A stretch of 64,000 bases of DNA from Leptolyngbya iicbica LK (lineage in GTDB: Bacteria > Cyanobacteriota > Cyanobacteriia > Phormidesmidales > Phormidesmidaceae), in the NCBI RefSeq assembly GCF_004212215.1, contig NZ_QVFV01000003.1:62001-126000 (forward strand). The letters are read 5' to 3'. Position 1 is the stretch's first letter, and every line of letters starts with the position of its first letter. A program made the translations under genes and the position numbers. This document shows positions 37,767 through 53,042 of the stretch, piece by piece. A model generated the notes under the pieces. It worked only from the letters and a program-made list of their open reading frames with translations. It searched no databases and had not been told where the DNA came from.

Positions 37767-38310
37767 GACCGGCCCTCCTAAATGGACGAGACTGCTGAGG
37801 TTGGGTTAAGGCGGTGACGCGGTGGTAGCTGCGCCGCGCCGCGCCATAGCGCCCCAAGCGATGTAGCGCCACCCCTTGAAATAACCATGCCTGAACGTGA
37901 TCAGGGTGTCTGTGCAAGATCAAGGTGCAGCAATATAAAGCCTCTTCATAGCGCTCGAGCCAAATCAGCAGCACGGCTTTTTGCAGCCAAATTTGAGTAT
38001 CCACAACGGTCGATAACGCCTGAGCCTGTTCGACGCTGCTTAAGGCGGCAGCATGGCGATCAAGGCAAGCCAGGGCCTCGGCTCGACCACACCACCCCGC
38101 AATCGCATGCGGCTGCCAGGCCAGTGCCTGCTCAAACTGCTGTAGTGCGCGTTCATACTGGCCGCCATGCAGCAGCAAGCGGCCCCTTTCACAGTGGCGC
38201 ATGGCCTCGGTCTCGGGGACAAATCGGGGCTGCCTGGCAGGCGGTTGCGGGGTCGTGATCGAGCGACTTGACGCCAAAGCGTTTGAATAATTGGGAAGAG
38301 TCGTTTTCAT
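37735..38310 (-). CDS. TPR repeat protein
   Basis: 191 residues with three to four tetratricopeptide units (GRLLLHGGQYERALQQFEQA, GRAEALACLDRHAAALSSVE, KAVLLIWLERYEEALYCCTL, FQGVALHRLGRYGAARRSYH). A Pro/Arg-rich N-terminal tail precedes them. No signal peptide, so probably a cytosolic scaffold. First gene of the overlapping TPR-DUF2949-hydrolase operon. Confidence 0.85.
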   Translation of the reverse strand: MKTTLPNYSNALASSRSITTPQPPARQPRFVPETEAMRHCERGRLLLHGGQYERALQQFEQALAWQPHAIAGWCGRAEALACLDRHAAALSSVEQAQALSTVVDTQIWLQKAVLLIWLERYEEALYCCTLILHRHPDHVQAWLFQGVALHRLGRYGAARRSYHRVTALTQPQQSRPFRRAGHEQKPHRAVG

Positions 38311-38693
38311 CGGAAGTTTCCTAGCCTTTGGCTGCTAAGCGTAGTCACCGACTATGACATTCGTGTGTCGCTGATATTTCGAAGATATTTTTTTCGGCGT
38401 CAGCCAGACCGCTATCCACGATGCGACCCTTGGCCCGATGAACACGGGGGCGGCAAACTCTCCCGGGGCCGATAGGACGGTTCCCTCACACGGCTCCTGA
38501 CGATATCGATTAGTGCAACAGGGAATCGTATACGCTGATTTAGCTAATTCGGCCATCAACGCACCAGTCTATAGGTTGTGCTTGAGGCGCGAAACCGAAT
38601 ATTCGCCTGGCTTACGCTGTGCTAGTCCAGCCTATGCAGGCGGCAACAAGGCAAACGGCAAAAAGATTCAGACAACGCCATTCACGGCAGCGC
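38311..38693. other. intergenic region, no gene recognised
   Basis: About 380 bases. Short open frames occur on both strands but none has protein-like composition. The minus strand carries AGGAGCCGTGTGAGGGAA, which recalls the region before domain V of group II introns; the partner arm is missing, so at most this is a relic. Confidence 0.3.
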
Positions 38694-39380
38694 TCAAGGG
38701 TGTGTTGTCAGCCGCAGTAGCCCGATGCCCAAGCTGAGCCAAAGAAAGCCAATACCATAGCCAGCCAGCACATCCGTCGGCCAGTGGACGCCTAAATAAA
38801 GCCGACTCAGGCCAATGGCCCCGATCAACATTGCCGCCGTGCCATAAATCAGCACTTTAAAATTCCCATAGCGCTGCGCCACCAGATACGCCAGTAAGCC
38901 ATAGAGCACCATCGCGCCTAAAGCGTGACCGCTTGGAAAACTGTAGGTCGTTTCAACAATCAGCGGCGGCCAGAGCTGGGGGCGCGCTTTGCCAAACAAT
39001 AGCTTCAGACCGATGCTCAGGCCTACAGCGCCCAAACACGTGAAGAAAAAGACAACAGCCCCCCGCCATTGGTGTCGCCAACAGAGCCAACTGATAGTGA
39101 TGCAGGCTAACGGCACCACAATGGCGGGACTCCCGAGTTGCGTAATCCCCAGCATGATGTGATCCAGGGTTGGGTTGGCCCACTGATGCAGACTCAGCAA
39201 AATCGTCTCATCAAACCAGAAGGCCTCTTGCTCTAGCACCTCATCAGATAAGTGAGCAAGGAGTAGGATCAGCAGCAGGCATATCCCTAGCCAGAGCCCA
39301 CCCACGGTCGCGATAAAGGTCATTAGTTGGGGATGAACCCACCGCTGCCATGCTTTGAATAAGGATTTCAGCTGTTGCAT
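38694..39380 (-). CDS. PAP2 family phosphatase
   Basis: Membrane lipid phosphatase of the type-2 phosphatidic acid phosphatase superfamily. All three motifs are intact: KARPQLWPP, SFPSGHALGA, and SRLYLGVHWPTDVLAGY. Six hydrophobic helices, 228 residues. It may act on phosphatidate or on undecaprenyl diphosphate; the sequence does not say which. Monocistronic. Confidence 0.92.
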   Translation of the reverse strand: MQQLKSLFKAWQRWVHPQLMTFIATVGGLWLGICLLLILLLAHLSDEVLEQEAFWFDETILLSLHQWANPTLDHIMLGITQLGSPAIVVPLACITISWLCWRHQWRGAVVFFFTCLGAVGLSIGLKLLFGKARPQLWPPLIVETTYSFPSGHALGAMVLYGLLAYLVAQRYGNFKVLIYGTAAMLIGAIGLSRLYLGVHWPTDVLAGYGIGFLWLSLGIGLLRLTTHP

Positions 39381-39617
39381 CGGATGGCCAGACTGTCACC
39401 CTAAAATTACAGCATGCTCATGATGAAAAACCTGATTGCCATTCCGCTCTAAGGCTGGCTCGGCAATGATCGGGCCGGCCCATCCTAAAAGCGACTGGTC
39501 GTCAGCGTCGATCCCCGATCGCCGCCATTCCTGCGGGGGATCAGAGCCTGTTGGATCGATGCTCCCTACCAGCGGTTCTGGTCATGTCGGTGAGTGATGG
39601 ATGGATGGGATGCGGTG

Positions 39618-39652
39618 CTCGATGTCGTCACTGCCACTGTGACGACATTGAG
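39618..39652. repeat. 14-bp hairpin upstream of the lipoprotein gene
   Basis: Arms of 14 positions (CTCGATGTCGTCAC and GTGACGACATTGAG, one G-T wobble) around a 7-base loop. It ends 38 bases before the start of the lipoprotein gene at 39691 and could be an operator or a leader hairpin. The rest of the 310-base gap (39381-39690) shows no gene. Confidence 0.6.
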
Positions 39653-39690
39653 CTTTGACGTTCAACGATGATTCAGAGGTGGTGAAAACG

Positions 39691-40218
39691 ATGACATGGC
39701 ATCTCAGGAAGTTGAGCCCGATCGCGCTGTTGGTCGGCATGGCGATCGCGGGTTGCAGCACGCCCAACAATAGCACCGCCGAATCTCCGTCGACCCCAGC
39801 AGCCACTTCCTCCGTTCCCCCCACCGAAGCTACCTTTGTGGCTCCTAATGTCGAGTTTGAGGTGGTTGCCGAATCGGGCACCTGTCCCGAAACCGTGGGT
39901 CTATGGGAGTCGGGCTGGAGCTTTGAAGGGGGGGCCGATCATACCGTCGTGGTCGACTTCCGCCCCATTGCTCAGCAGCCCACACAGATCGTGCAGTCAG
40001 ACGAGCGCCGCGTCGTTTACGAAGCACCGCTGAACGAGGCTTTTGCGGACTGCTTTGGGACAGCGCGATCGCCCTCCCTGAGCATGTATACCCTGCGGTT
40101 TGGCAACGGCACCGTTCAGTTTGACCTGGATTTGACCGAGGACGATGGTTTCCGCGAGATTCGCCATGCCGACCTCTCCGTCGATCGCCCCTACGTTTAC
40201 TGGCGCGCCGCCGAATAA
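39691..40218 (+). CDS. putative lipoprotein
   Basis: 175 residues. The N terminus has a lipoprotein signal (LSPIALLVGMAIAGC) with lipobox IAGC, then a Ser/Thr/Pro-rich spacer and a compact beta-rich domain with two further Cys (GTCPETVG and EAFADCFGTA) that could pair. It should sit at a membrane surface. The ATG at 39691 begins the signal; an in-frame start at 39655 adds 12 charged residues. Family not recognised. Confidence 0.8.
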   Translation: MTWHLRKLSPIALLVGMAIAGCSTPNNSTAESPSTPAATSSVPPTEATFVAPNVEFEVVAESGTCPETVGLWESGWSFEGGADHTVVVDFRPIAQQPTQIVQSDERRVVYEAPLNEAFADCFGTARSPSLSMYTLRFGNGTVQFDLDLTEDDGFREIRHADLSVDRPYVYWRAAE

Positions 40219-40275
40219 GTCCCAGTCAGAACGTAGGGTGGGCATTGCCCACCTACTAGGTCAGAGCCATTCGCC

Positions 40276-41610
40276 CTACAAAAAGCGCATCAACATGTAG
40301 ACGCCCATCAAGGTCAACTGCACCGCCGCGATAGGGAAACCGTACTTGAGAAACGTCCGAAACGAAATCGACTTGCCGTGCTGCTCGGCGACGCCAGCGG
40401 CCACGATGTTAGAAGACGCGCCGATGAGAGTGCCGTTGCCGCCCAGGGTCGCGCCGTACATCATGGCGTAAAACAGGGGCAGCACTTCAATCGGCAGGTT
40501 CCCGGCGAAATTCGGGTCGAGAATATCCGGCGTTGCGAGCCCCACGTTCACTACATACTCCTTGAGCAGGGGGACCATCGCGACCACGAGGGGAATGTTG
40601 GGCACCAAACTCGACAACCCACCCACCAGCAGTAGCACCAGCAAGGAACCCAGCGCAATGTTGTGCCCCAAAATCAGCGCCAGTACGCTTGAAGCGGCAC
40701 TCAGCACCCCCGTTTTCTCCAGGCTGCCGATCAGCACAAACACGCTCATGAAAAAGAGGAGGGTGCTCCAGTCCAAATCCCGCAGGATGTTTTGGATGCT
40801 GTCGATGCGGCTGTGGTGGGTGATTAGCAAACACAGCGCCGCTCCCATCAGGGCCACGGTAGCGGGTGAAATGGGCACAGGCAAAGTTTCACCAACCACG
40901 AACAGGGTCAGCACCAGTGCCACAATGAGGCCTCCCAACATCAACATGCGGGGATGGTTGACACGGGGGTGGGGTAGTTGAGCGAGGTTGTCGAGCTGCT
41001 TGTGCCAGATGGTCGGAAACAGGATGGGTAGCATCACCACGATCGCCGCGATCGCGATCGCGCCCCCCAAACTCAGCGACTTCAAATAATCCAAAAAGCT
41101 GATGTTGACCGCATCGCCCACGATGAACGTTGCCGGATCGCCCACGAGGGTCAGCAGTCCGGCGCTGTTGGCAACAAACACCAGCAAAATCAGCAGTGGC
41201 ACAAAGTTCACCCCCAGTTCCGTCGCAATAGGCGGCAGCAGGGGAGCCAGCAACATCACGGTGGTGGCGTTGGGCAACACCGCACAGATGGGAGTGGTGA
41301 TCGCGACGATACCCAGCAGCAACCGCTTCCCCTGCCCGCCAGCCATGCGGACCATTTGGGTCGCCAGGAATTCAAAAATGCCAGTGGGCTCAAAGGCGCG
41401 CACCATCACCATGACCCCAAAAAAGAGGGCCAGGGTAGCGTAACTTTGGGCGATGTAGTCAACGGCTTCGGTCAGCGTCAGCACGTTGAGAAAGAGCAGC
41501 AGCAACGCGCCCAGCATGGCGGCGATCGTCAGCTGCAAGCGCTCGGTCATGATGCAGACGAGTACACCGAGAAAGACGCTGAGGGATGAAACAGCGGCAA
41601 AGCTTCCCAT
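40276..41610 (-). CDS. ArsB/NhaD-like (SLC13-type) ion permease
   Basis: 444 residues, about eleven to twelve transmembrane helices, of the ion-transporter superfamily that includes ArsB, NhaD and SLC13. Repeat-related hairpin motifs are visible: AVLPNATTVMLLAPLL with NSAGLLTLVGDPATFIVGDA in the first half, and GGLSSLVPNIPLVVAMVPLL with GATLGGNGTLIGASSNIVAA in the second. The ion is not evident. AGGAG lies seven bases before the ATG. A c-di-AMP riboswitch lies upstream on the same strand, which points to a role in ion or osmolyte balance. Confidence 0.9.
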   Translation of the reverse strand: MGSFAAVSSLSVFLGVLVCIMTERLQLTIAAMLGALLLLFLNVLTLTEAVDYIAQSYATLALFFGVMVMVRAFEPTGIFEFLATQMVRMAGGQGKRLLLGIVAITTPICAVLPNATTVMLLAPLLPPIATELGVNFVPLLILLVFVANSAGLLTLVGDPATFIVGDAVNISFLDYLKSLSLGGAIAIAAIVVMLPILFPTIWHKQLDNLAQLPHPRVNHPRMLMLGGLIVALVLTLFVVGETLPVPISPATVALMGAALCLLITHHSRIDSIQNILRDLDWSTLLFFMSVFVLIGSLEKTGVLSAASSVLALILGHNIALGSLLVLLLVGGLSSLVPNIPLVVAMVPLLKEYVVNVGLATPDILDPNFAGNLPIEVLPLFYAMMYGATLGGNGTLIGASSNIVAAGVAEQHGKSISFRTFLKYGFPIAAVQLTLMGVYMLMRFL

Positions 41611-41664
41611 AGGAATCTCCTGGATGATGAGACGACTGAGCCAGATACCAGGAGATCATGCATC

Positions 41665-41775
41665 TCCTCCCAAGGCCGACGAAGTTAGCTGACGGGCTAG
41701 GCGTGAGAGTTCGCCTCCTTGCAGCTGCAAGGTTTGCCCCAAAGATGGGTCCTCCGCTTTGGTCACAGACCAAAC
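41665..41775 (-). promoter_or_regulatory. ydaO-yuaA (cyclic di-AMP) riboswitch
   Basis: Read on the minus strand, the leader of the permease gene shows the conserved blocks of the ydaO-yuaA class: AGCGGAGGACCCATCTTT, GGGGCAAACC, a variable CTTGCAGCTGCAAG stem, and the hallmark CCCGTCAGCTAACTTCGTCG. Order and spacing match the known class. Directly downstream, AGGAGAT / ATCTCCT (41649-41669) forms a hairpin that could belong to the expression platform, upstream of the SD. In characterised cases c-di-AMP binding turns the gene off. Confidence 0.88.
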
Positions 41776-41930
41776 TAGGCCAATGGCTCAGATGAATTTT
41801 TCCGACGATAGCACTAATTTTTAGAGCTGACAATCAGAAACGTCGATAGTTGTAGTCCGCAACTGCGGGGGGGGGGTGCCTTCACTCGTGGCGGTTGATG
41901 GCGATCGCGAATTCAGCGTCGCAATGGCGC

Positions 41931-43028
41931 TCAAATGTAAGTCTGCAAGAGCTGAATCATGGCGGTGACTGAGGCCAGGGAGGCGGTTTCGTTGGGAGTA
42001 TGGTATTCCGTGGTGGGAACTTGCAGGGTCGTGCCACTAATCGCTCCGTCAGTGGCGGCAATGAGGCGGCCCATTTCGGTGCGGCCCAGGGAGTAGGGTT
42101 TGGTGCGGGTGCGGTTTTGGGCCTCAATGTAATCGTCTTTGTAGCTGTAGGGAATGTCGAGTTGGGTGCAGCGATCGGCGAGTTCCTGGGTGATGCCCTC
42201 GGCGAAGTTCGCACTGGCATCCTTACGGCGCAGGGTGACTAACTGCTGATCGGCGGCGGCGCGATCGTGGTAGGGGCTGGTATCCAGCGCCACTAATCGC
42301 TGGGTAGTGAGTTGCTGCCGCTGAAACCAGGACAGGGCATAGCGCCAACTGCGACCGGATTCTTCTTGGGCGGTGAAGAGGGCCGTCCCCGCAAAGCCAC
42401 AGCGAAACAGAAAGATGATGATGGCGGCACTTAGCACGTTGTCTAACTGGGCAGAAATGTAGCCATCGTTGAATTGCAGGCGATCGAGAAAGGCGATCGG
42501 AGTGCCCGGTTGCAGGTGTTCTAAGCCTTCCACCTCAAAGATCAAGTTTTTGCGCTCTGGGCAAATGTAGGAGCGGGTGATCTGGCCTTGGCCGATGTAG
42601 GTGCCGATATAGGGGAGGTGGGCCTGTACCCGTTGCCCCTGAAACCGATTTTCGATGGTGTTGAGCATTTGCTCAGACACCGAATCCCCCGTGAGTTCGC
42701 TTTGGTTGCCCGCGATAAAGGCGGCGTATTGAAACTCGTTGGGGCCAGTGCAGAGTAAGCCGTGGCGATCGATGTGGGCCGACAGCATTAGGTCGTGGGG
42801 GCGATCGCCCTGGGCGACTAAGACGCCATGATAGTGAGTGACCTGGGCTCCCACTTCCTCTAACTCCCGCCGCAGCACCCGAAAGAAGGAGTCTTCGCTC
42901 CCCACGACGGAGGGTTCTCGAATCAGCAGTTGCAGAATTTCCAACAATTCTGTCAGCTCGGCGACGCCTTCGGGCAGCGGAGCGTTTTGGGTGACCAGTT
43001 GCTCGACAACCATATTCAAAGGGCTCAT
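41931..43028 (-). CDS. M42/M20-like metallopeptidase
   Basis: A co-catalytic zinc peptidase of the M42/M20 group, 365 residues. Metal ligands can be matched in order: SAHIDRHG (His and Asp), ISAQLDN (bridging Asp), AQEESGRS (general-base Glu and Glu ligand), VALDTSPYHD (Asp), and TEYHTPNE (His). A domain between the first two ligands (about 95-205) is the expected inserted barrel of M42 enzymes. Likely an aminopeptidase of the tetrahedral TET class; substrate unknown. Confidence 0.85.
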   Translation of the reverse strand: MSPLNMVVEQLVTQNAPLPEGVAELTELLEILQLLIREPSVVGSEDSFFRVLRRELEEVGAQVTHYHGVLVAQGDRPHDLMLSAHIDRHGLLCTGPNEFQYAAFIAGNQSELTGDSVSEQMLNTIENRFQGQRVQAHLPYIGTYIGQGQITRSYICPERKNLIFEVEGLEHLQPGTPIAFLDRLQFNDGYISAQLDNVLSAAIIIFLFRCGFAGTALFTAQEESGRSWRYALSWFQRQQLTTQRLVALDTSPYHDRAAADQQLVTLRRKDASANFAEGITQELADRCTQLDIPYSYKDDYIEAQNRTRTKPYSLGRTEMGRLIAATDGAISGTTLQVPTTEYHTPNETASLASVTAMIQLLQTYI

Positions 43029-43188
43029 GGGGCAACCTTAATCTGGGGTAATTTGGAACGATACTGCTTTTCCCTATTGCATTTGGTCGAGCTCACTACA
43101 CTTTTCCCCGGCTCATGGGTCGGGGCACTCTGCAAGCCTGGTCATTGTGGAAGGCTGGGGCGATAACTTCTAGAGCTCAAAGATAAAA

Positions 43189-43281
43189 GCTACCGTGAAG
43201 TTGTGCGGCGGCAGATCATCTCAAACTCTCACCGATAACCTCTGTACCGTCCGCACCAACGAGATGTTCGGCGGCTTTAGC
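43189..43281 (-). repeat. attC-like element 2 (after vapC)
   Basis: Imperfect inverted repeat with pairing arms GTGCGGCGG and CCGTCCGCAC (inner TGTGCGGCGGCAG, outer CCGCACCAACGAG). On the minus strand it reads GAACATCTCGTTGGTGCGGA at one end and CGCACAACTTCACGG at the other, the layout of integron attC sites. The vapC stop overlaps its first bases. It aligns along its whole length with the element at 44005-44096. The R' box is degenerate (GGTAGC). Confidence 0.5.
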
Positions 43282-43657
43282 GACTGTAGGGTTGATCTAG
43301 GCTCAAGCCTGAGATGACTTGGTAGTGCTTGACGTTGAAAGTACAGAGGGTTGCGCTACGTCCAACAGCACAGGCCGCAATCAAGGCATCAATCAAACCG
43401 ACCTTATAAGACAGATGGTAGGCGGTGAAATCAGACAAAGCCCGAGCACAGTCAGTTTCGGTCGGCCAGACGATGGTCAAAGGCGCTACAAGCTGTAAGA
43501 CTTTCCGCACCTGTTGCTTGTTCTGAGCGTCCTGAATCAATTCCATCACCACAAAGCCGGGGATGCTCGGCAGTGCTGGGACAGAGGCAAACCAAGCCAG
43601 TGCTGGCGCATACCCCCGCTGAATATCGATCATGACATCAGTATCAACCAGATACAT
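43277..43657 (-). CDS. vapC: VapC-like PIN-domain toxin
   Basis: A 126-residue PIN-domain ribonuclease toxin. The acidic catalytic set is present: Asp in LVDTDVMIDIQ near the N terminus, Glu in FVVMELIQDAQ, Asp in KVGLIDALIAACA, with the C-terminal TLCTFNVKHYQVI (TxNxxH). It lies seven bases after the antitoxin gene. Flanking attC-like elements suggest that this pair travelled as a cassette. Confidence 0.88.
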   Translation of the reverse strand: MYLVDTDVMIDIQRGYAPALAWFASVPALPSIPGFVVMELIQDAQNKQQVRKVLQLVAPLTIVWPTETDCARALSDFTAYHLSYKVGLIDALIAACAVGRSATLCTFNVKHYQVISGLSLDQPYSR

Positions 43658-43664
43658 TCGCTAC

Positions 43665-43925
43665 CTAAGCCCGCTCACGATGTTCAGCTTGGTCACGCAA
43701 CCGGCGGGCGTACTCCTGGCTGTCAGTAATATCAGGCCGAGAGTTGATCACCCCGACGCTTTCCCAGTAGGCAACTAGCTCCACGCCTGTTTTGGGAGGA
43801 TTGTGCAGAAAAGGGCGAAAGGAGAGAACCCGAAGAATATACTCCGACAGAGGCAATTTAAGCTGAGAAGCCTCAGCAGAAAGCTCATTCTCTAGCTCTA
43901 TCGGTAGCTCTAAGGTGATATTCAT
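43665..43925 (-). CDS. vapB: VapB-like antitoxin
   Basis: An 86-residue antitoxin paired with vapC. The N-terminal strand MNITLELPIELENELSAEA is typical of ribbon-helix-helix DNA-binding antitoxins, and the acidic/basic C-terminal tail (DSQEYARRLRDQAEHRERA) is the toxin-neutralising part. The ATG at 43923-43925 is used; a GTG two codons upstream is also possible. Confidence 0.82.
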   Translation of the reverse strand: MNITLELPIELENELSAEASQLKLPLSEYILRVLSFRPFLHNPPKTGVELVAYWESVGVINSRPDITDSQEYARRLRDQAEHRERA

Positions 43926-44004
43926 AGCCACATTCTTCTCTAGTAGATCTATCCTATACCTGAACTTCTGCGAGTTAAGTGGCTACTGTGAGAGTGGAAC
44001 TGCT

Positions 44005-44096
44005 GCCCAACGGTGAAGTGGTGCGGCGGTAGATAATCTCGAATACTCAACGATAACCTCCGCTCCGCCGCACCAACGCAGTATCAGGCGTTTGGT
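44005..44096 (-). repeat. attC-like element 1 (after relE pseudogene)
   Basis: Arms GTGGTGCGGCGG and CCGCCGCACCAAC can pair into a long stem. The minus-strand ends are ACCAAACGCC (near the RYYYAAC box) and CGTTGGGC (perfect GTTRRRY box, 44005-44011). The spacing of conserved blocks (AACG, CGTTGGTGCGGCGG, ACCACTTCACCG) mirrors canonical attC sites such as those ending AACTCAAGCGTTAGGC. It starts nine bases after the reconstructed relE stop. Confidence 0.55.
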
Positions 44097-44104
44097 AGCT
44101 TCGA

Positions 44105-44336
44105 TCACTTGCGGCTTTTCCAATAACCAGGCTCACGACTACAATGCATGACTGCCAAAATTTAGGATGTAGTCTTGCTCAATTGTGTAGAGAACACCAT
44201 AAGGAAACTTACGCGCCATGCACCGCCGAACGTCTTCATCAGTGGCAGCGTAACGGGCGGGGGCTTCCCTAACTCGATAAACTGTATCCTCGATCGCGCT
44301 TATGAATGCTTGGCTGATGTATTGTGCCAACCACAA
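44105..44336 (-). pseudogene. RelE/ParE toxin, frameshifted
   Basis: The open part encodes a RelE/ParE core (ISAIEDTVYRVREAPARYAA, RRCMARKFPYGVLYTIEQDY) and then runs off into a stop. One base later the other frame encodes the missing end, LAVMHCSREPGYWKSRK, with its own stop at 44105-44107. Removing one A from the run at about 44162 restores ILILAVMHCSREP, so a single-base insertion broke the gene. The N-terminal strand and first helix of the family are also not recognisable. No antitoxin gene is next to it. Confidence 0.75.
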
Positions 44337-44531
44337 TCGATACCCAGCGCGGACTGCGGCGATCGCGCTCGGTTCGGGACTTAGCGATTACTGGTGTGGT
44401 GCTAAGACTCGGGGAATGTGAGTCGTGGCCAGTCTGTTCCACGTGTATCAAGGGCCAGCCAGTCGCTAGCGATCGCTCCAGCTGCCCAGGGCAATGCCAA
44501 AGCATCGCTGACGTGACCCAAGCGGCCCCCT

Positions 44532-51084: not shown

Positions 51085-51255
51085 ATGAAAAAACTGATTG
51101 ATTTTGGTAAAAGCCCCTGGCCGATGTTGATTTTGACGGCGCTTTCGGTGGCGGTGGCCGTGCTCACCAGCCTGGACTGGAGCTATTCCGAATATGCGCC
51201 CGACCGCACCACTGCCCCCGCCACTGAAACGCCCGTCAAGGCCACCCAACCATGA
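51085..51255 (+). CDS. 56-residue membrane protein
   Basis: Starts MKKLIDFGKSPWPM; one hydrophobic helix (LILTALSVAVAVLTSLDW) and a polar Thr/Pro-rich tail. Its stop TGA overlaps the ATG of the SLC13 permease (ATGA at 51252-51255), so translation should be coupled. The small size, single helix and coupling suggest an accessory subunit of the permease; this is inference. Family not recognised. Confidence 0.7.
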   Translation: MKKLIDFGKSPWPMLILTALSVAVAVLTSLDWSYSEYAPDRTTAPATETPVKATQP

Positions 51256-53042
51256 CGATCGCACTGACCCTGGCGGTTGTTCTACTGGCGTTAATTTGCT
51301 TTGTCGGAGAATGGTTTCCCGCCGATGTAACCGCGATCGCGGTCATGGTGCTCTTGATGACACTGGGGCTGGTCACTCCGGAAGAGGGCATTTCCGGCTT
51401 TAGCAGTTCCGCCACGATTACGGTGCTGGCGATGTTCATCCTGAGCGCGGGCATCGACCGCACCGGAGCCGTCCAAGCGGTGAGCACCGGGTTGATGACC
51501 TGGGGCGGACGGCGGGCCAGTCGCCAAATTGTGGTGATGGGGGCGATCGTCGGGCCAATTTCCGCCTTCATCAACAACACGGCAGTCGTTGCGGTGTTTC
51601 TGCCCATCGTCGAAGACTGGTGCCGCAAGCAGGGCATTTCGCCATCCAAACTGCTGATGCCCCTGTCGTACCTGACGGTGCTGGGCGGCATGTTGACGGT
51701 GATCGGCACCTCGACGAACGTATTAGCCAGTGGCCTTTCGGCGGACTTGGGCTATAGCCCCTTCGGTCTGTTTCAGTTCACCGGGGTTGGCCTCATCACG
51801 GGAGCGATCGGGTTGCTGTACCTGGCATTTGTCGCGCCGCGCTGGTTGCCCCAACGGCGATCGCCCGCCGAGTCCCCCGTGCTGGAACGCTACGGCCTCA
51901 ACGACTACATCAGCGAAATCGTGATTCCCCCCGGTTCTAAGCTAGTGGGTCAGTCGTTGCAGGGCAGCCAGCTCCAGCGGCGCTTCGATCTGGATGTGAT
52001 GGAGCTGATTCGCGAGGGCGCGCACTTTCCCCAACCCATTGCCGACAAACGGCTACAGGCGGGCGATATCTTGCTGGTGCGCAGCCAGCCAGCCTGTTTG
52101 TTGAAAATCAAAGAAACTCAGGGCATTGAAATTTTGCCGGAGGTGCAATTTGGGCGATCGCAGGCCGAACCCGCCCTGACCCAGGGTGAAGAAGGCATTG
52201 CGGAAGTCCTGCTTTTGCCCAATGCCGAGATCGTCGGTTCCACCCTCAAAGAAACGCGGTTTCGCCAGCGCTACAACGCCACCGTGCTCGCCATTCAACA
52301 GGGGCAAACCTTGGTGCGCGATCGCCTGGGTCGGGTGCCGATCCAGTTTGGTGACGTGCTGCTGGTGCAAGGCCCCAAACAAAGTTTGCTGGGGCTGCAA
52401 ACCCGTCCGGGCTTCGTGTTAGCGCAGCAGCGAGATCTTGAAACCTTTCGGCGAGAAAAAGCCGGGGTAGCGATCGCCATCCTCCTGGGAGTCATCCTCC
52501 TGGCCGCCGTGGAATGGGTGCCCATTTTGGTCAGCGCCTGGATCGGCGTCGTCCTCATGCTGCTGACGGGCTGCCTCAAACCGGGGGAGCTTTACAGCTC
52601 CGTGCGCTGGGATGTCATCTTTTTGCTGGCGGGGCTGATTCCCCTCGGTATTGCTATGGAAAATTCTGGCGCGACCCAGTGGCTAGCGAATCAGTTGGTG
52701 GCCCTGGGCGGGCAGTGGTCGGGCTATGCGTTGCTGACCTTATTTTTCGTCATCACGTCCCTCGTCACAGAAATCTTGTCCAATAATGCCTGTGTCGTGC
52801 TGTTGCTGCCGATCGCTGCCCAGGTGGCCGAGACCTTAAATTTCAATCCGTATGCGTTTATGTTTACAGTCATGTTTGCGGCCTCCAACAGCTTTATGAC
52901 CCCGATCGGCTATCAAACGAATACGATGGTCTACGGCCCTGGCGGCTACCGCTTTGCGGACTTTCTCCGCGTGGGCACTCCCTTGAATATCCTCATGGCG
53001 TTGGTGACTCCGCCGCTGATTATTGCTTTTTATGGACTCTAA
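51252..53042 (+). CDS. SLC13/CitT-type permease with two TrkA-C domains
   Basis: 596 residues. N-terminal membrane half (VGPISAFINNTAVVAVFLPI, then GTSTNVLASGLSADLG), then two regulatory TrkA-C (RCK_C) domains in the middle (about 215-300, VIPPGSKLVGQSLQGSQLQR; about 305-395, LLPNAEIVGSTLKETRFRQR), then a C-terminal membrane half (SNNACVVLLLPIAAQV and SNSFMTPIGYQTNTMVYGPG). Cyanobacterial homologues such as SLT/SbtB-neighbour sulfate or dicarboxylate carriers share this plan. The substrate is uncertain; sulfate or an anion coupled to Na+ is a fair guess. TrkA-C domains bind nucleotides (including c-di-AMP in other bacteria), which is worth noting next to a c-di-AMP riboswitch in the same window. 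Confidence 0.9.
   Translation: MTIALTLAVVLLALICFVGEWFPADVTAIAVMVLLMTLGLVTPEEGISGFSSSATITVLAMFILSAGIDRTGAVQAVSTGLMTWGGRRASRQIVVMGAIVGPISAFINNTAVVAVFLPIVEDWCRKQGISPSKLLMPLSYLTVLGGMLTVIGTSTNVLASGLSADLGYSPFGLFQFTGVGLITGAIGLLYLAFVAPRWLPQRRSPAESPVLERYGLNDYISEIVIPPGSKLVGQSLQGSQLQRRFDLDVMELIREGAHFPQPIADKRLQAGDILLVRSQPACLLKIKETQGIEILPEVQFGRSQAEPALTQGEEGIAEVLLLPNAEIVGSTLKETRFRQRYNATVLAIQQGQTLVRDRLGRVPIQFGDVLLVQGPKQSLLGLQTRPGFVLAQQRDLETFRREKAGVAIAILLGVILLAAVEWVPILVSAWIGVVLMLLTGCLKPGELYSSVRWDVIFLLAGLIPLGIAMENSGATQWLANQLVALGGQWSGYALLTLFFVITSLVTEILSNNACVVLLLPIAAQVAETLNFNPYAFMFTVMFAASNSFMTPIGYQTNTMVYGPGGYRFADFLRVGTPLNILMALVTPPLIIAFYGL

Follow-up and report, generated by a model that had tools for sequence, protein, structure and literature searches.

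A c-di-AMP riboswitch that probably controls a Slr0753-type permease at the level of translation in the cyanobacterium Leptolyngbya iicbica LK

On the minus strand of a 64,000-nucleotide stretch of the Leptolyngbya iicbica LK genome (assembly GCF_004212215.1, contig NZ_QVFV01000003.1, positions 62,001 to 126,000; hereafter the window, whose own numbering is used throughout), a permease gene is preceded by a leader that an earlier note, written from the letters of the DNA, assigned to the ydaO-yuaA class of riboswitches for cyclic di-AMP (c-di-AMP). The locus raises the question of whether the element is indeed such a riboswitch, which transporter it governs, and by what mechanism, and in which direction, the ligand would act on that gene. 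On balance we favour a c-di-AMP riboswitch that controls a Slr0753-type permease, acting on translation and switching it OFF.

When the whole 64-kb window was scanned with Rfam models (cmscan), RF00379, the c-di-AMP riboswitch family, was the sole match, no second family reaching its gathering threshold. The match lies at 41791..41659 on the minus strand, scores 76.6 bits (E 5e-16; gathering score 38) and covers positions 1-134 of the 134-position model without truncation. The score thus lies above the threshold in the cmsearch-type check that the earlier note had proposed, and all three hallmark blocks to which it had pointed were read and aligned on the minus strand within 41665-41775. That interval, of 111 nucleotides (nt), locates the element correctly, although the element itself is slightly longer, at 133 nt (41659-41791). 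It stands in sense orientation 48 nt from the start codon of the permease gene, and occupies a similar position in the relatives L031-L036 (L numbers denote loci and their leaders), whose permeases are 79-90% identical to that of LK. It is also the only RF00379 element in the LK genome (5.7 Mb, 16 contigs), in a search whose Bacillus subtilis control was positive. The genome encodes one copy of a diadenylate cyclase domain (PF02457, 136.9 bits in Pfam), and c-di-AMP is therefore likely to be made. The parts of the aptamer are as follows.

41659..41791, minus strand: c-di-AMP riboswitch aptamer (RF00379), full length, from the cmscan match
41778..41781, minus strand: 5' strand of the P1 helix (partner 41674-41677), from the cmscan alignment and pair counts
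41674..41677, minus strand: 3' strand of the P1 helix (partner 41778-41781), from the cmscan alignment and pair counts
41704..41709, minus strand: loop strand of the pseudoknot (partner 41667-41672), from a permutation test and the leader alignment
41667..41672, minus strand: 3'-tail strand of the pseudoknot (partner 41704-41709), from a permutation test and the leader alignment

Across six related leaders P1 is paired in 95.7% of alignment cells and the pseudoknot in 100%. Among 136 distinct cyanobacterial aptamers the true loop-tail pairs gave a value of 16.4 against 14.7 for swapped ones, which none of 2000 permutations reached (0/2000, relatedness uncorrected), and an equivalent pseudoknot pairing can, on our reading, be found in the crystallised ydaO sequence as printed in PMC5393176. 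Folded alone, the LK leader is of ordinary stability (z -0.84; 41 of 200 shuffles were equally or more stable), and the case for the aptamer therefore rests on the covariance model and on comparison, not on energy. On that basis the LK element is almost certainly an ordinary c-di-AMP riboswitch. A candidate sigma-70-type promoter at 41833..41805 (minus strand) was set aside, as the region contains two promoter-like sites where 1.2 would be expected, which is no evidence for a promoter, and no tandem repeats were found in 38000-44500.

The gene behind the aptamer is the following.

40276..41610, minus strand: 444-residue permease of the CitMHS/ArsB fold and Slr0753 type, a putative anion (chloride) transporter, from Pfam, ortholog alignment, AlphaFold and a Protein Data Bank fold match

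The protein matches two Pfam families, CitMHS (PF03600) at 196.9 bits, with a cut-off of 31.9, and ArsB at 56.9 bits, with a cut-off of 22.2, and a c-di-AMP riboswitch does therefore stand ahead of an ion permease in this cyanobacterium, as had been claimed. Its AlphaFold model, made from 29 aligned orthologs in which PNATT and PNIPLVVAM are invariant (mean predicted local distance difference test, pLDDT, 83.9; predicted template-modelling score, pTM, 0.82), is closest among solved folds to ArsB (10tp; template-modelling score 0.81/0.84, 22% identity), followed by VcINDY and SLC13 structures, a likeness to the ArsB and SLC13-DASS proteins alongside the CitMHS match. Identity as an ArsB arsenite pump was nevertheless rejected, since the scores against the NCBIfam ArsB models (108.6 against 457, 98.3 against 760 and 94.6 against 415 bits) fall far under the curated cut-offs, as do those for MamN and the DASS symporters. 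No NhaD-named model was among the five NCBIfam matches at E<=0.01, in a library whose NhaD content was unchecked. The description 'ArsB/NhaD-like' in the earlier note is thus right solely at the superfamily level, where Pfam and fold bear it out, and does not extend to the ArsB subfamily (best 108.6 against 457 bits). Within the LK genome the next-best matches to the permease reach 23-26% identity. A distant second permease of 596 residues lies at 51252-53042 on the plus strand; it has a long central insert, and its two halves both match weakly (23-25% identity).

In the 2023 review PMC10117731, slr0753, which encodes a putative chloride efflux transporter, is described as the gene under control of the c-di-AMP riboswitch in Synechocystis, the statement on regulation and transport being credited to Mantovani 2022 and Kobayashi 2006; for the role of Slr0753 as a putative chloride exporter, Kobayashi 2006 is cited both there and in PMC9896922. 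According to PMC5386190, Ncr1680-slr0753 is an 'actuaton', in which transcription reading through an abundant leader small RNA (sRNA) yields the mRNA, and the arrangement is conserved in PCC 6714. Slr0753 went undetected in a salt-stress proteome (PMC8670252). In a Synechocystis PCC 6714-like genome we found, as in LK, a single RF00379 element ahead of the same type of permease, here 68% identical over 420 residues to that of LK. This gene presumably corresponds to D082_10970/slr0753, which would tie the LK protein to Slr0753 indirectly, through the PCC 6714-like permease. The riboswitch target is thus very probably a Slr0753-type permease and, by analogy, the LK protein is probably a chloride/anion transporter acting in osmotic balance. 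OCA2, which has been tied to chloride conductance, is said in PMC4270065 to be homologous to bacterial anion transporters, with the slr0753 paper among those cited; a likeness to the LK permease is suggested by that description. The pairing of riboswitch and permease is ordinary in kind and largely known, its target having been reported for Synechocystis. The suggestion that the locus newly links c-di-AMP to this transporter family therefore falls, as the link is made for slr0753 in PMC10117731 and the permease proves to be a frequent target (see below), and the interpretation of the earlier note as a whole is partly supported.

How the riboswitch would act on the permease gene is suggested by five further segments of the leader.

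41662..41668, minus strand: R1, anti-anti-Shine-Dalgarno strand in the aptamer tail, sharing 41667-41668 with the pseudoknot, from complementarity and the leader alignment
41648..41656, minus strand: X, anti-Shine-Dalgarno segment, able to pair with R1 (7 base pairs, bp) or the ribosome-binding site (9 bp), from complementarity and the leader alignment
41615..41623, minus strand: Shine-Dalgarno (SD) region of the permease gene, complementary to X over 9 bases, from a shuffle test and the leader alignment
41784..41791, minus strand: 5' strand of the outer helix P0 (partner 41636-41643), 8 bp, from the leader alignment
41636..41643, minus strand: 3' strand of P0, between X and the SD region, from the leader alignment

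P0 lies immediately outside P1 and encloses both the aptamer and X. These segments describe two alternative folds, which were compared across six aligned related leaders (113 cells). In the first, P0 with P1 and R1:X, 92.9% of cells are paired, a figure that does not exceed 45.4% when the fold is slid, and 7 of 500 shuffles attained its covariation score; P0 on its own is paired in 95.8% of cells, with two of its eight pairs changed on both sides. The second, P1 with the pseudoknot and X:SD, is paired in 93.8% of cells, against at most 56.6% when slid. The X:SD pairing of LK was equalled by 2 of 500 linker shuffles, in a test that scored 27 of 39 permease leaders and omitted 12, of which 11 had linkers longer than 320 nt and the other was too short. 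A joint test, requiring X to pair with both the SD and the tail, was applied to 40 distinct permease leaders with a core-to-start distance below 420 nt. Fifteen of the 40 reached p<=0.05, compared with 2 of 37 ABC-transporter and 1 of 37 universal stress protein leaders; it should be emphasized that the null was one of mononucleotide shuffles and that many permease leaders are near-identical relatives. The comparison sets are those that passed the distance filter (37 of 49 ABC-transporter and 37 of 39 stress-protein leaders), and many of the stress-protein starts are uncertain GTG or TTG calls. Among LK and its near relatives the test was passed by LK (0.01), L290 (0.04), L293 (0.01) and L033 (0.05).

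A scan of the LK leader revealed no terminator-like site. At the level of sequence the leader is therefore of the translational type, having an anti-SD segment that can pair with a second partner upstream and lacking a terminator, and control of the LK permease is likely to be exerted on translation. Terminator-like hairpins before the start codon were found in 10 of the 40 permease leaders, where mononucleotide shuffles would give 1.8, and in 4 of 37 ABC-transporter leaders (0.9 expected) and 1 of 37 stress-protein leaders (0.5 expected). Together, the anti-SD and terminator counts indicate an expression platform that varies from lineage to lineage and, in LK, appears to be translational. Sister-genus leaders (L295, L297, L299, L307, L308 and L312) carry a TCTCCT anti-SD segment as well as a terminator-like hairpin with a T run, which suggests that lineages switch between transcriptional and translational platforms. 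The Synechocystis leaders also depart from that of LK: in L249, L186 and L188 (group g7, labelled as that genus) the core-to-start distance is 347-355 nt as opposed to 81 nt, the joint test gives p 1.0 in all three, L249 has a terminator-like site, and the Synechocystis leader is described in PMC5386190 as building up as a discrete sRNA.

A precedent for such a leader is the nlpC riboswitch of Corynebacterium glutamicum (RSnlpC), for which PMC9960051 gives repression of translation as the most likely mode; its authors propose that a CTCC has two possible partners, the ribosome-binding site and a GGAG lying about 20 nt upstream. Like LK, RSnlpC as described there has no canonical terminator and has an anti-SD segment with an alternative upstream partner. 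It differs in belonging to another phylum and in targeting a cell-wall peptidase, while the X:SD complement of LK is 9 bp long and kept in several genera. The RSnlpC proposal, in which ligand removes the partner of the anti-SD, provides the simplest reading for LK. Binding of c-di-AMP would draw the aptamer tail into the pseudoknot and so release X, which would then cover the ribosome-binding site and turn the gene OFF; in ligand-free RNA R1 would hold X, P0 would form and the ribosome-binding site would be open, the ON state. We consider it somewhat more probable that c-di-AMP switches the LK permease OFF in this way than that it does not.

Several observations weigh against this scheme. The pseudoknot and R1 overlap by just 2 nt in LK, so their mutual exclusion is partial, and the covariation score of the fold with P1, pseudoknot and X:SD was reached by 70 of 500 shuffles (six sequences, with L034 one column out of register at the SD). 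Only four of the eight near relatives, LK included, pass the joint test: L032 (0.11), L294 (0.54), L292 (0.69) and L291 (0.79) do not, L292 and L294 having a strong X:SD part and a weak tail part and L291 lacking the pattern. The idea that an anti-SD segment is the rule among c-di-AMP riboswitches of cyanobacteria was likewise rejected, the ABC-transporter and stress-protein leaders being at chance level. When the leader was folded together with 30 nt of coding sequence (run A), the probability of X:SD rose from 0.27 in the free RNA to 0.63 with the aptamer alone forced, but fell from 0.27 to 0.02 when the aptamer was forced and the pseudoknot strands were blocked. When folding ended at the start codon (run B), forcing P1 and blocking the pseudoknot raised X:SD in LK from 0.78 to 0.96, with similar rises in L031 and L035; there was no rise in L032, L033 or L034. 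A decision between ON and OFF from folding energies was accordingly abandoned, as outcomes shifted with segment ends and constraints. Finally, OFF control of a chloride exporter is odd, being the reverse of expectation if high c-di-AMP signals high turgor.

It could be argued, then, that the same riboswitch acts on the same target in the opposite direction, c-di-AMP stabilising the aptamer, P0 and the R1:X hairpin and thereby freeing the ribosome-binding site. The conservation of P0, its place directly outside P1, its two doubly changed pairs and the rarity among shuffles of the covariation score of its fold are all consistent with this proposal, as is run A, where the aptamer-forced, pseudoknot-blocked leader keeps P0 at 0.89 as X:SD collapses; an exporter, the role that PMC10117731 and PMC9896922, both citing Kobayashi 2006, give to Slr0753, would also sensibly be induced at high c-di-AMP. 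The pseudoknot, however, takes up part of R1, R1:X reaches just 0.22 under that same constraint, P0 might on geometric grounds coexist with X:SD as a pseudoknot, and run B points the other way for LK, L031 and L035. Translational ON control is therefore unlikely. A broader version, in which leaders of LK's family form a translational three-way switch whose tail serves either the ligand pseudoknot or the anti-anti-SD helix, with a covarying P0 and perhaps even ON control, is put forward tentatively; the target being a putative chloride exporter, ON would be possible there, contrary to the OFF rule for the riboswitch class.

Less probable still is that the gene is controlled by transcription termination, the anti-SD segment being incidental. 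B. subtilis ydaO/kimA, which shares the RF00379 aptamer, differs from the scheme preferred here in acting by termination, on a potassium importer (PMC9960051), and both the excess of terminator-like hairpins among permease leaders and the read-through origin of the slr0753 mRNA described in PMC5386190 would fit such a mode. None of the 10 terminator-bearing leaders, however, belongs to LK or to its seven near relatives (L290-L294, L032 and L033), and the 48 nt between aptamer and start codon leave scant room. That the aptamer has decayed or become uncoupled from the permease gene, for which the unremarkable stability of the leader could be cited, is very improbable given the full-length RF00379 match and the similar placement in L031-L036.

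Translational OFF control thus remains our preferred reading for LK, and the pairing on which it acts is widespread. RF00379 elements were present in 93 of 386 cyanobacterial genomes (140 rows, 138 above the cut-off); these genomes are a sample and were scored with stricter filters, so that absence is soft. Leaving aside the LK element and the two rows below the cut-off, 137 elements were fetched and the genes around them called by a simple longest-open-reading-frame script, not a gene finder; some stretches end at contig ends (for example L008, L029, L117, L166 and L193), so downstream genes may be incomplete. The nearest downstream gene was an ABC-transporter permease in 49 cases, a universal stress protein in 39, a Slr0753-type permease in 29 and another gene in 20, four of these last on the opposite strand; the ABC-transporter, stress-protein and glycosyltransferase groups were identified from one Pfam-scanned representative each. 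The Slr0753-type permease was the first or second gene behind 44 of the 137 riboswitches, in 12 of the 44 behind a stress protein. Viewed from the permease, 55 of the best 80 of 152 named loci with a close permease had an RF00379 element, upstream of the permease in 41 and downstream in 14, and the other 25 had no match, in some cases because the contig stops close to the gene. The downstream cases are L041, L047, L048, L052, L057-L059, L065, L071, L072, L076, L077, L083 and L087; in the one traced, the same element in L047 and L158, the riboswitch precedes ABC-transporter genes.

Within LK's family the permease occurs in 33 of 63 genomes (E<=1e-100), and an aptamer core lies within 400 nt upstream of it in 28 of these 33; the other five have no RF00379 match (two of the five were inspected). 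RF00379 is found elsewhere in 4 of the 30 family genomes that lack the permease (Fisher p 8e-9 for the association, relatedness ignored). In LK's genus two of six genomes have both permease and riboswitch, and four have neither.

Paired c-di-AMP riboswitches, on the same strand and separated by 1.7-4.0 kb, occur in 17 of the 93 genomes (loci L120, L126, L146, L154 and 13 others). In all 17 the first gene after the upstream riboswitch encodes an ABC-transporter permease and the first after the downstream riboswitch a universal stress protein, and in 8 of the 17 a Slr0753-type permease follows the stress protein; such loci may represent a c-di-AMP regulon island. Rarer first genes (L133, L143, L144, L136, L181, L197 and L207) encode a cation P-type ATPase and NapA-like antiporters, both named by eye from the sequence, and family-4 glycosyltransferases, the last identified from their single scanned representative. 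In the window itself, at 43277-43931 (minus strand), the gene of a PIN-domain protein follows a small open reading frame, a toxin-antitoxin-like arrangement in which the role of antitoxin is a guess.

The compact LK leader (about 190 nt) provides a testbed for translational c-di-AMP switching, of which one reported example was met among open-licence papers (PMC9960051), and it also lets the direction of switching on a putative chloride exporter be examined. Beside potassium and osmolyte transport, anion transport appears to be a frequent output of c-di-AMP in cyanobacteria, a case to which the 44 of 137 riboswitches with a Slr0753-type permease behind them add.
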